A stretch of 64,000 nt of DNA from Caldilineaceae bacterium (GCA_022821545.1 JAJEDJ010000007.1:1-64000); one strand, 5' to 3'; counted from the stretch's first letter, positions 59,867 through 64,000 are shown. Made by a program: numbers and translations. Notes: generated from the letters alone by a model not told the origin.

Positions 59867-60643
59867 TCATGCCGTGCCCACGTGAATGGCGACCGTTCCC
59901 ATCATCTTTCGCACGTAGGAGACGTGCCGAAATCCTGCCCGCTCAAATTGCCGCGCCGTCTCCTCCGGCTGCAGGAAGGCCACCGTGCTTTGCGGCAGAT
60001 ACCTGTAGGCTGCGTCTCGCGGGCCGAGAACATTTCCCTCTGTCCCGATCCCGGTCGAGAACAGCCGGCCCAATACAGGGATGGCTCTGAGCATATAGAA
60101 ACGCAGCAGCGGTTCCAGCATCGTGGGCGGGGGCGGCGATGTTTCCAGGCAGACGATGCGCCCGCCCGGTCTGGTCACCCGCCGCTGTTCAGCCAGACAG
60201 GTGTCGACGTCGGTCACATTACGCAGCAGGAAGCCGCTCGCAACTGCGTCAAAGTAGCCGTCGGCAAAGGGCAGATGCAGGCCGTCACCCTGGACGAATT
60301 CGACGCGGCCCGTCCTCCCCCCGCCGGGAAAGCGGGGAGATCGAACGGCCCTCTTCCGGCGTCCCACTTCCATCATTTCGAACGTGAAATCACAGCCGAT
60401 CACTTCGGCGTCGCGATGTGTGCGTTTGGCTTCGTAAGCGATATCGCCTGTACCGGTACCCACGTCGAGAAGACGGCCGGCGGCCGGCAACCGGCACAAC
60501 GCGACGACTTCGCGACGCCAGTTGACGTCCTGCCCACCGGTCATAAGCCGGTTGAGCAGATCGTAACGATGCGCGATCCCGGCGAACATCTGGTTGACGT
60601 ACGCGGCCTTTTCGGCTGTGGGGGGAGACGGGGACGAGTTCAT
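59867..60643 (-). CDS. menG: demethylmenaquinone methyltransferase (UbiE/MenG)
   Basis: UbiE/MenG adds the last methyl group of menaquinone (and ubiquinone). The 258-residue protein has VNQMFAGIAHRYDLLNRLMTGGQDVNWRREV, the family N-terminal signature, DVGTGTGDIAYEA as motif I, GCDFTFEMMEVG, LPFADGYFDAVASGFLLRNV, and LEPLLRFYMLRAIPVLGRLF with the UbiE-specific tail. Given the MenA-like protein in the window and the absence of ubiquinone genes, menaquinone is the better guess. It is 9 bp after the stop of the second ATPase gene. Confidence 0.93.
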   Translation of the reverse strand: MNSSPSPPTAEKAAYVNQMFAGIAHRYDLLNRLMTGGQDVNWRREVVALCRLPAAGRLLDVGTGTGDIAYEAKRTHRDAEVIGCDFTFEMMEVGRRKRAVRSPRFPGGGRTGRVEFVQGDGLHLPFADGYFDAVASGFLLRNVTDVDTCLAEQRRVTRPGGRIVCLETSPPPPTMLEPLLRFYMLRAIPVLGRLFSTGIGTEGNVLGPRDAAYRYLPQSTVAFLQPEETARQFERAGFRHVSYVRKMMGTVAIHVGTA

Positions 60644-60652
60644 TCTTCCCGG

Positions 60653-61990
60653 CTATTCGGCCATATTGCGTAGCTGAGCGCTGGCTTTCTCCAACTCCCT
60701 GCGCAGTTCCTGAATCTCCTGCAGAACCTCCGGCGGCGTTTGATCGGCATGTCCGCTGTATGCTGCCAGCAGCGACTCCAGCCGCCCCTGCAGTTCCGGG
60801 ACCTCGTGTTGCAGGTAGTCCAATTCCACCTTGCGTCCCATTTCAAGCAGCGTTTCGACCCCGTAATCGCTCACGTCCGAGTACAGGGTCTGGGCCAGCT
60901 CCTGGTAGTTTTCCAGCATCCAGCGGCGCAGAAACTCGTTGCCGATTGTCCAGCGCGGGAATTCATCGCGCGCAGGGGTCCCTGCCGTACCGTCCGCCCG
61001 GCTGTAGACCCTCTGCAGGTAACCAAGATTGTTCATACCATGCACATACATCGAGATCTGATCGATTGATTCGTTGTCGGTCTTGGCCACCAGCTCCTCT
61101 TCGCTGATCACGCCCTGGCGGGCAACGGTCAACAGAATCTGCCTCTCGGTTGGGGCGAGACACTTGAAGTCGACCTCGAAGAACCCGGCAAGCAGGTGGT
61201 CGGCCTGCAAGTCCTCCTCGCGAATCTCCCGCAAAGAACCTCTTCCCTGCTTTTCCTCGAACAGGCGGTAACAGAGCGTCTGCACCAGGTAGGGATGGCG
61301 GTGGGAGTGCCGCAGGATATCGTCGATTCGCTCCCGCTCGACGTTGACGGGCGTGTTGCTCTGTTCCTGCATTACCAGGCTAACGCTTGCCTCGGGCTCG
61401 AGGTTCCACAGATTTACGAGTGTGAACCCAAAGAGAAACGGGCTTGTGAGCCAGTTTCGGGTCAGGTCGTTCAGTTGCATCAGCAACTTGGTCGACGTCA
61501 TAATTGTGCGCATTCCACCGTTCTGGAAGGCCTTGCGAAGCCGCGCCAGCGCCTGGTAGTCGTTCCTGGCAAGACTGATCCAGGCTTCGGCTTCGTCGAT
61601 GAGAAGGAGCAGATGCTTGCCATGGGCTCTCAGGGCACGTTGCAGAGTGCGCAGGATATGAATGGCATCCTGATTGTAAAGAGCGCTTACATCGACCCCG
61701 TAGGCCTGGAACCTGGGCATTTCGTCTTCAACGGCAAGGAACAGCTCGTAGTCGAAATCGTCCTTGGTTTCACTTCCCTGCAGGTCCCAAAACAGGGGGA
61801 CTGCGCTTGCGCCTTCCTGCCTGGTCAGCAGCCATTCCAGCTGCCGCAGCATCGAGGTCTTGCCCATGCGACGGGTGCCAACGACCCAGATGGCGGGGTC
61901 TTCGGCGCTTATCAGGTATTCGAGCAGCTGCTCCCGGCCGTAGTGGTCGGGCCCGCGCAGCCAGCGGCCAACGGAGTAAGGATTACGCAT
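60653..61990 (-). CDS. AAA/STAND-type P-loop ATPase with helical tail
   Basis: The 445-residue protein has a Walker A GTRRMGKTS (about 38-46), Walker B HLLLLIDEAEAW (about 126-137), and a long helical region behind it that ends in a likely coiled coil (LQEIQELRRELEKASAQLRN). The arrangement (MGKTSMLRQLEW, then LRTLQRALRAHGKHLLLLIDE, then TSTKLLMQLNDLT) matches the ATPase domain of the neighbouring propeller protein, so the two are paralogues or partners. Family members act as signalling switches or chaperone-like proteins. It lies 85 bp downstream of the propeller gene and 9 bp before menG, all on one strand. Confidence 0.8.
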   Translation of the reverse strand: MRNPYSVGRWLRGPDHYGREQLLEYLISAEDPAIWVVGTRRMGKTSMLRQLEWLLTRQEGASAVPLFWDLQGSETKDDFDYELFLAVEDEMPRFQAYGVDVSALYNQDAIHILRTLQRALRAHGKHLLLLIDEAEAWISLARNDYQALARLRKAFQNGGMRTIMTSTKLLMQLNDLTRNWLTSPFLFGFTLVNLWNLEPEASVSLVMQEQSNTPVNVERERIDDILRHSHRHPYLVQTLCYRLFEEKQGRGSLREIREEDLQADHLLAGFFEVDFKCLAPTERQILLTVARQGVISEEELVAKTDNESIDQISMYVHGMNNLGYLQRVYSRADGTAGTPARDEFPRWTIGNEFLRRWMLENYQELAQTLYSDVSDYGVETLLEMGRKVELDYLQHEVPELQGRLESLLAAYSGHADQTPPEVLQEIQELRRELEKASAQLRNMAE

Positions 61991-62075
61991 AACGATGCGG
62001 GCATTCCTCTCTTTTGCTTCGACAGCCAGTTTCGTGTCGGGAGGAAGCTCTCGTCCGGCTCACCGGAAAAAAGGA

Positions 62076-64000
62076 CTAAGTGTCTACGTTTTCACTCAGT
62101 CCGATATTGATGGTATCACCCATCTGCTGAATATGCCCATGTGCGAATACGGCGTCCGCCATCGTAATCGTGCGCCGCCCGTCTGCGAGCATGCGCCCGA
62201 CCGCCTCGAGGCCGTACTGTTGAATGCGAAAGGGACGGCCGGCACAGTTCTCGATAATGAAGTCCACGACCCCAGGTTCATAGCGGTAAAAGCCTCGCAC
62301 CGGCTCGGTGAGCAGTTCCATCGCCTGCTCGCGTGTAAAGGGCTCCACCTCGATCTCGTTAAACAGATTGTACCAGGGGCTCTCGATTCGTCCCCATTCC
62401 TTGCTGATACGGATGCCGGCGATAACCGCTCCGAGCGTTGCCGCGAAGTCACGCATGAAGATGCGCCGCAGCCGCTGCTGCATCAGGTGATCGTAGGCGT
62501 TGAAAACGTCCATTTCGTCCATCAGAAGGATCAGGCGCAGGTGCTTGCCGGGATGACTTGCTTCACCAAAATGCTGCAACGCCTTGATCACATCACGCAG
62601 ATCTCTGATGAACTCTCTGTCGGTGTACTGTTCGTGGCCGGGGCGGTAGTAGAGAAGGTCCTGGAGGGCGTCTTTCGTCTCAGCCGTAAGCCCGGACAGC
62701 GTCGAAGCCGTGTGCAGGATCTCCTCCATCAGGAAATGGAAGAACGTATCCTCCTCAGTGCCCTCAAGGTCCACATACAGCGGCACAAACCAGTATTCCT
62801 CATCTTCCAGGCCCCAGAGATGGTTGTTCAGTTGATAGAGCAGCGTCGTCTTGCCGATCCGGCGTTCGCCGTGAATCATAATACTGTTGTTGTGCAACGT
62901 ATCCACGATCTTCTGCAGCATCTCCCGCCTGCCGAAGAACATGTCCTCCCGCCGCACCGGCTCGCCGCTGATGAAGGGGTTGAAGGAGCGGACGACGGCG
63001 TCCAGGGCCCGGCGGCGGGTCTGGATGACCTCAATACCCATATAGCCGAAGCCGATGAGCGCCAGCAGGCCGGTGACGATGAGCGTTATGAGATAGTCTG
63101 TGCGGATCGACCCCAGCAGGGGCAGCCGCACCTGCGCGGGCAGCGGCTCTGCTTCAAAGGAAACGCTGCTTATCTCGGAATAGGTGAAGGAGAAATCCCG
63201 CACCTGAAATTCGAGCGTGTACCGGCCCTTTTCAGAGAAGTCGGACAGCTCCAGAAAGGGCCGGTCCAGGAGCTGCCACTGGCCGAGTTCTCCGGGCGGA
63301 CTCAGCCGGTAGAGGACGACGAGTTCGGATTGAGGCGTATAAAGATCACCTGCCTCATAGCCAACAATGATATTGCCGTCGGATTCCACCTTCCAGGCAT
63401 TTGCAGATATCAGTTCGGCCTGGCCCGAGATCTCCTCGATCCTGATCCAGGGGGGTATCGAATCCGGGCGATGGAATGTCAGCCCTTCTCTGCTGCCGAA
63501 CCAGTAGAGCCCGCCCGGAGAGCGAACGATTGAAGAGATGGACGCGGCCGGCGAGACCGATTCGACAATGAGCGTTTCCCACGTGCGGCCGTCATAGCGG
63601 GTGACGCCGCCCTCGCTGCCGATCCACAGGGAGGCGTCGACCGGGTCGACGTACAAGTCGTAGAACAGCTTGCTCGGAAGACGGGCGGTCGCCGTGCGAT
63701 CATGCCAGACCTGCCCGTCAAAATAGATCAGGCCGTGCTGGTTGACCGCGGCCCACATGGCGCCGGGGACCTTCGGGTCCGAGACCAGGGCGGCGACGTT
63801 GTCCCCGAAGGTCGACTGCCCTGCCTCCGAGCCGGCCTGATACCGGGCCCATCTGCCATCGGGTTCGCCGACGAAAATCCCGCCGCTCTCAGTAGCCGCC
63901 CACAGACGGCCTGAGGCGTCGAGCGCCAGGTCCTGCACGACCTGCTGGGTCAGGGCCTCTTCAATTGACAGCACCCTGGTGTCAAGGTCGTAACGCGCCA
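62076..64000 (-). CDS. beta-propeller/transmembrane/P-loop ATPase sensor protein (truncated at window edge)
   Basis: The frame is open past position 64000, so the N-terminus lies outside. Visible parts, at least 641 residues: (1) two-component-regulator-propeller repeats, LDASGRLWAATESGGIF, LYVDPVDASLWIGSEGGVTRYDGRTWE, SPGGLYWFGSREGLTFH; (2) a Y_Y_Y-type beta domain (GRYTLEFQVRDFSFTYSEIS), as in hybrid two-component systems; (3) one membrane helix (LITLIVTGLLALIGFGYMGIEV); (4) an ATPase domain with Walker A HGERRIGKTTLLYQL and Walker B LRLILLMDEMDVF, a conserved family signature FGRREML. The histidine kinase that usually follows the Y_Y_Y domain is replaced by an NTPase. A second ATPase gene follows. 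Confidence 0.82.
   Translation of the reverse strand, partial: ARYDLDTRVLSIEEALTQQVVQDLALDASGRLWAATESGGIFVGEPDGRWARYQAGSEAGQSTFGDNVAALVSDPKVPGAMWAAVNQHGLIYFDGQVWHDRTATARLPSKLFYDLYVDPVDASLWIGSEGGVTRYDGRTWETLIVESVSPAASISSIVRSPGGLYWFGSREGLTFHRPDSIPPWIRIEEISGQAELISANAWKVESDGNIIVGYEAGDLYTPQSELVVLYRLSPPGELGQWQLLDRPFLELSDFSEKGRYTLEFQVRDFSFTYSEISSVSFEAEPLPAQVRLPLLGSIRTDYLITLIVTGLLALIGFGYMGIEVIQTRRRALDAVVRSFNPFISGEPVRREDMFFGRREMLQKIVDTLHNNSIMIHGERRIGKTTLLYQLNNHLWGLEDEEYWFVPLYVDLEGTEEDTFFHFLMEEILHTASTLSGLTAETKDALQDLLYYRPGHEQYTDREFIRDLRDVIKALQHFGEASHPGKHLRLILLMDEMDVFNAYDHLMQQRLRRIFMRDFAATLGAVIAGIRISKEWGRIESPWYNLFNEIEVEPFTREQAMELLTEPVRGFYRYEPGVVDFIIENCAGRPFRIQQYGLEAVGRMLADGRRTITMADAVFAHGHIQQMGDTINIGLSENVDT

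Follow-up and report, generated by a model that had tools for sequence, protein, structure and literature searches.

A predicted propeller sensor fused to a STAND-type NTPase and paired with a second, soluble NTPase in Caldilineaceae

The two genes and their products

The stretch of DNA analysed (the window) comprises the first 64,000 nucleotides of contig JAJEDJ010000007.1 from a Caldilineaceae bacterium (GCA_022821545.1). At its end lie two minus-strand genes, here called gene 1 and gene 2, followed by a ubiE/menG-type methyltransferase gene (Table 1). An earlier sequence-only reading of the window had placed both ORFs at these positions and had seen in them a sensor of the hybrid two-component system (HTCS) type feeding an NTPase in place of a kinase, next to a related soluble NTPase with a coiled coil. 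The analysis bears out this description. Gene 1 is cut by the window edge and runs on to contig position ~65372, with a full product of ~1098 aa. The start chosen, MVKRSPATDRF, gives a 1098-aa protein with a signal peptide; the ORF could also open farther upstream.

Table 1. Features of the gene pair and of the gene after it; positions are those of the window.
Feature	Position	Strand	Basis
Gene 1, in-window part (propeller, Y_Y_Y-like domain, membrane helix, STAND-type NTPase)	62076..64000	-	ORF, motifs, matches to HTCS structures
Gene 1, final blades of the double propeller (residues ~458-639; 14 blades in all)	63456..64000	-	Blade motifs, Reg_prop, HTCS structures; the rest lies beyond the window edge
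Gene 1, Y_Y_Y-like beta domain (residues 640-739)	63156..63455	-	Pfam Y_Y_Y in homologues; beta structure in the model
Gene 1, membrane helix (residues ~758-784)	63020..63101	-	Hydropathy (one strong helix); one long helix in the model
Gene 1, cytosolic NTPase (residues 796-1098)	62079..62987	-	Alignment, model, fold search; ends soon after the GxP motif
Gene 1, Walker A GERRIGKT	62847..62870	-	G-E-R-R and G-K-T unchanged across 24 aligned homologues
Gene 1, Walker B LILLMDEMD	62508..62534	-	D-E-M-D unchanged across 24 aligned homologues
Gene 2, soluble STAND/MNS-type NTPase with coiled-coil C-terminus (445 aa)	60653..61990	-	ORF, alignment, model, fold search
Gene 2, Walker A GTRRMGKT	61856..61879	-	R-R and G-K-T unchanged across 23 aligned homologues
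Gene 2, Walker B LLLLIDE	61592..61612	-	D-E unchanged across 23 aligned homologues
Gene 2, winged-helix-like region (residues 265-360)	60911..61198	-	Model; aligned with 2qen and 2fna through residue ~360
Gene 2, coiled-coil C-terminus (residues 375-444)	60659..60868	-	Model; position held by a LuxR HTH in relatives and by a nuclease-like domain in a paralogue
ubiE/menG-type methyltransferase gene	59867..60643	-	TIGR01934, 7.3e-57; starts 9 bp after gene 2

In the gene 1 product a signal peptide and 14 propeller blades are followed by a Y_Y_Y-like domain, a single membrane helix and a P-loop NTPase. The 14 blade motifs are spaced over residues 67-636 and the Pfam model Reg_prop is matched with an E-value of 5.8e-30. 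A phmmer search of the sensor half against the PDB (1e-5) returned HTCS-type sensors only, including 3v9f (1.2e-27) and 4a2l (2.9e-27), both of them crystallised HTCS sensors of Bacteroides. The Pfam model Y_Y_Y has no match in the gene 1 protein of the window; it is matched in homologues, namely one member of alignment A1 (8.3e-10) and the protein of locus L052 (1e-8), and the structure model of gene 1 has a beta domain at the corresponding position. Histidine kinase, receiver and HTH domains are absent from the gene 1 polypeptide in Pfam and NCBIfam scans, the NTPase standing in their place, and no winged helix was seen at the end of this NTPase in the structure model.

With a sensor half of HTCS type, the locus might be thought an unusual hybrid two-component system with its kinase nearby. 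A third gene upstream that could explain the pair, for example a kinase, had been raised in the sequence-only reading and was looked for; the gene upstream of gene 1 is a divergent gcvT. Neither protein has a kinase domain in the Pfam scan, and among the genes that constantly accompany the pair in its relatives no kinase was recognised. As a local arrangement an HTCS is refuted, and only a kinase encoded elsewhere could rescue this explanation, which is regarded as very improbable.

With 27% identity (E-value 2e-8), the two NTPases are related, and no further relatives of either were found in the same genome at the threshold used. Motifs of the types hhGRE, Walker A, Walker B and GxP, in that order, make up the STAND/MNS motif set, and both proteins have them in this order: FFGRRE, GERRIGKT, LLMDE and GRPFRIQ in gene 1, and HYGREQ, GTRRMGKT, LLIDE and HRHPYLVQ in gene 2, where the GxP position reads HRHP. 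The hhGRE and GxP motifs were judged by eye on the alignments. With their motifs intact, both NTPases are apparently active.

Structure models of the two NTPases (mean pLDDT about 79) were compared with known folds. The best match of the gene 2 model is 2qen (Z 16.2, rmsd 5.7, 309 residues aligned), followed by 2fna (Z 15.3) and then by Orc proteins and NLRs, while that of the gene 1 NTPase is the Orc/Cdc6 protein 1w5t (Z 16.3, rmsd 4.5, 261 residues aligned), with 2qen (Z 14.8) and MalT (8bob, Z 12.7) among its other matches. On these models, both NTPases are predicted to belong to the STAND/MNS/Orc fold group. The archaeal MNS-type ATPases SSO1545 (2fna) and PABY2304 (2qen) are closest in fold to gene 2, the winged helix included; aligned identity is 14-15% and no coiled coil is aligned. 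To our knowledge, neither has a known receptor partner. PDB sequence searches with both NTPase profiles gave no matches, phmmer of gene 2 against the PDB gave no credible match, and nSTAND1, nSTAND6 and ATPase_2 were matched in the window's proteins below their Pfam cut-offs. The only Pfam model passed by gene 2 is the general AAA_22, and therefore no named STAND clade is assigned.

Conservation and surroundings of the pair

Gene 1 is present in 37 of 46 genomes of the order, and both genes are absent from eight. A full gene 2 lies next to gene 1 on the same strand in 36 of these 37 genomes; in the 37th the gene 1 match is truncated, and a full gene 2 paired with it was not found. Gene order is held wherever both full genes were found (36/36), and pairing is therefore far beyond chance. 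The gap between the two matches in the 36 genomes is 19-316 bp, with two exceptions of 1.1 and 1.4 kb. These correspond to an insertion of ~1.1 kb between the genes (L020:7015-8109) and to a ~1.4-kb gap in L021. Within the order the pair is single copy and near-core, and its location is constant in close relatives. At 34 loci from GTDB genomes gene 2 likewise comes after gene 1, on the same strand, in every contig of sufficient length. The survey covers Chloroflexota, and most of the genomes are MAGs. The two genes almost certainly form a functional unit. Across the distant loci the propeller diverges faster, at 28-43% identity, than the gene 1 NTPase, at 53-66%, which fits a ligand that changes while the switch stays constant.

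The methyltransferase gene after gene 2 perhaps shares the transcript of the pair in this genus, and a positional coupling of the pair to menaquinone synthesis had been suggested from the window. A ubiE/menG-type gene immediately adjoins the pair in the closest relatives only, and the coupling is consequently rejected as a general feature. In other relatives there are glycan genes between the pair and the menG-type gene, or the latter does not occur in the stretch examined. Of 19 distant loci, 17 have at least one surface-glycan gene beside the pair, and the remaining two are 5-kb contigs. These neighbours include a family 2 glycosyltransferase (13/19 loci), a large membrane-protein-like gene with an ILEI domain (12/19), a DegT aminotransferase (9/19), a Gfo/Idh oxidoreductase (5/19) and PMT_2 (3/19), as well as an unnamed gene in 6/19 loci, without Pfam or NCBIfam match, which we take to resemble a polysaccharide deacetylase. 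The menG gene comes after glycan genes in six of the 19 distant loci, and its immediate adjacency to the pair in the genus of the window thus looks like the result of a loss of intervening genes. In that genus no glycan genes surround the pair, so that the argument from context is indirect there, and no orthologue of the family 2 glycosyltransferase neighbour was found in the window's own genome at 1e-20, in a search run without a positive control.

These neighbours, together with the AAA-like folds of both proteins, could point to an ATP-driven machine which builds or exports surface glycan or envelope parts, with the propeller as its outer scaffold. The propellers of gene 1 also distantly match the NCBIfam model of PorZ, an LPS-delivery protein, at 3.1e-18, below its cut-off. 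However, the best matches of the sensor are solved HTCS receptors, there is a single membrane helix and no transport domain was recognised in either protein (Pfam), and gene 2 of a homologous pair carries a LuxR-type DNA-binding domain, as described below. Such a machine is given only a slim chance.

The C-terminus of gene 2

No C-terminal LuxR-type HTH was found by Pfam in gene 2 of the window. Genome G246 and its relatives, from another order of Chloroflexota, carry a homologous pair (profile E-values of 1.7e-39 for gene 1 and 2.2e-52 for gene 2) in which gene 2 ends in such a domain. In loci L050 and L090 it is matched by the Pfam model GerE (2.5e-20 and 3.8e-17, respectively), while in L087, L088 and L089 it was seen by sequence. 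The Reg_prop-NTPase gene lies directly upstream of the LuxR-type gene 2 in L050, L089 and L090 and two genes away in L087, and in L088 it would fall beyond the contig end. An obvious glycan cluster was not seen at the LuxR-type loci. In a tree of the gene 2 core the GerE-type proteins sit on a long branch (2.1 changes per column), and the LuxR group and a nuclease group each make up one side of a branch (support 100/100 and 99/99, respectively). The latter is a paralogue of gene 2, present in five Caldilineaceae genomes, with a C-terminal PD-(D/E)xK-like stretch (motif judged by eye; Pfam is silent). As the same position holds a LuxR HTH, a coiled coil or a nuclease-like domain, this end of the gene 2 protein looks to be an output that can be exchanged, and it is the best clue to function.

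The nuclease-like paralogue is found in loci L092-L096 (e.g. L094:3004-8146) near DUF2779 (Cas4-like) and GajA/OLD-like ATPase-TOPRIM genes, an arrangement that is possibly an undescribed defence cassette of Caldilineaceae. Several other arrangements were encountered. In L091:7314-8600 (genome G425) a solitary gene-2-like NTPase with a coiled-coil-like C-terminus is divergent from an FHA-ABC transporter gene, and in L053:7236-11143 a gene 2 homologue, cut upstream by the contig end, is directly followed by a peptidase C25 (gingipain-like) gene. L054:6208-12044 has an adjacent pair of NTPases, these being a GAF-nSTAND1 protein with an N-terminal hydrophobic segment and then an nSTAND2-Ser/Thr kinase fusion, which suggests that paired STAND signalling units recur in Chloroflexota. 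A TIR-NTPase protein lies beside a second P-loop NTPase-like ORF in a Chloroflexota genome (L055:8658-11684).

Like the two-gene nSTAND2 operons (Kaur et al. 2021, PMC8195603), the pair consists of two adjacent genes which both code for STAND NTPases. Those operons have one eroded NTPase, to which a GT4 or HEPN effector is fused (PMC8195603), whereas both NTPases of the present pair are intact, that of gene 1 belongs to a membrane receptor, and a toxic effector was not found. The Pfam model nSTAND2 matches 3 of 23 gene 2 members and is missing from the list of families for gene 1. Identity with an nSTAND2 two-gene operon is ruled out by the intact Walker pairs, the lack of an effector domain and the low number of nSTAND2 matches.

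A wider form of this comparison is counter-invader defence, in which the propeller would detect phage or competitor material and the paired STAND NTPases would trigger an effector. Two-gene STAND operons are predicted conflict systems (PMC8195603), and the nuclease-like paralogue with its DUF2779 and GajA/OLD-like neighbours also speaks for a role of this kind. Against it, Pfam, NCBIfam and PADLOC scans detected no toxic effector domain in either protein, and both NTPases look active, unlike the nSTAND2 case with its eroded member. The pair is also unlike mobile, patchy defence genes in being single copy, near-core and constant in location, with housekeeping or glycan neighbours. As to known defence systems, PADLOC gave only weak matches, to the P-loop region, and these were discarded. 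Overall, defence is an unlikely function of the pair.

Related systems and a proposed mechanism

In the HTCS sensors of Bacteroides two 7-bladed propellers are combined with a YYY domain, and several of these sensors bind oligosaccharides (PMC3243724). Like these proteins (4a2l, 3v9f, 3ott), the gene 1 product has a signal peptide, a 14-blade double propeller, a Y_Y_Y-like domain and a membrane helix. It differs from them in having an NTPase instead of the histidine kinase, receiver and AraC domains, and a partner encoded by a second gene. The sensing of outside sugars, put forward in the sequence-only reading, is plausible, given the homology to glycan-binding HTCS sensors and the glycan genes beside the pair in its relatives.

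The LuxR-type form of gene 2 resembles IniR of mycobacteria, which has an SSO1545-like ATPase and a C-terminal LuxR-like HTH and acts in the envelope stress response (PMC5760070). IniR differs in being a single protein with a MalT-like middle domain, for which no dedicated membrane NTPase receptor is described. MalT with MalK offers another parallel: MalK anchors MalT at the membrane, and a soluble STAND regulator bearing a LuxR-type HTH is under the control of a membrane-associated ATPase (PMC10427625). MalK, unlike gene 1, is an ABC transporter subunit and not a STAND receptor, and MalT has its own sensor domain. No description of a propeller-NTPase fusion paired with a second NTPase was found in the open literature searched. 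The earlier statement that no such system is described can therefore stand for the fused pair as such, but the nSTAND2 operons, IniR and MalK-MalT each cover a part of it. By its domain content, the pair is an HTCS sensor combined with STAND switches, and is neither an HTCS nor an nSTAND2 operon.

The best explanation of the pair as a whole is a kinase-free transmembrane signalling pair, in which a membrane sensor NTPase would signal to a MalT/IniR-like partner; its probability is put at about 60%. Taken separately, signalling from the gene 1 sensor to its gene 2 partner is considered likely, while a surface-glycan role falls a little short of an even chance. Given the DNA-binding domain at the end of gene 2 in the cousins, the two genes probably provide a route from the cell surface to gene control that does without a kinase.

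The propeller sensor would read an outside ligand, probably a glycan, and via the membrane helix this would alter the nucleotide state or oligomerisation of the inner gene 1 NTPase. The inducer-driven ADP-to-ATP switch of STAND proteins (PMC4381067) is a precedent, as is IniR. The gene 1 NTPase could then capture or release the soluble gene 2 NTPase, in the manner of MalK and MalT or of activated STAND proteins as they assemble, and gene 2 would act through its C-terminus. In the order of G246 this may be DNA binding by the LuxR-type HTH, and by analogy gene 2 might bind DNA in the lineage of the window too; the Caldilineaceae protein would act on some target through its coiled coil. The cell's own surface glycan or envelope is the likely subject of sensing, since distant relatives have the pair inside a cluster for glycan synthesis.

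A more specific version of the signalling pair is offered tentatively. An outside glycan sensor may drive the hetero-oligomerisation of two active STAND NTPases, the first a receptor in the membrane and the second a soluble relay whose output (LuxR HTH, coiled coil or nuclease) is exchangeable, for the adjustment of surface glycan in Chloroflexota. If true, this would be a third logic of transmembrane signalling beside one- and two-component systems.

What is known of STAND NTPases concerns mainly cytosolic switches in immunity and cell death and a few regulators. A STAND receptor working from outside to inside, with a dedicated soluble STAND partner, would show such a switch replacing the histidine kinase under the same sensor. 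The pair belongs to the near-core gene set of a bacterial family with few cultured members, and its cousins of the LuxR type are open to ordinary reporter assays.
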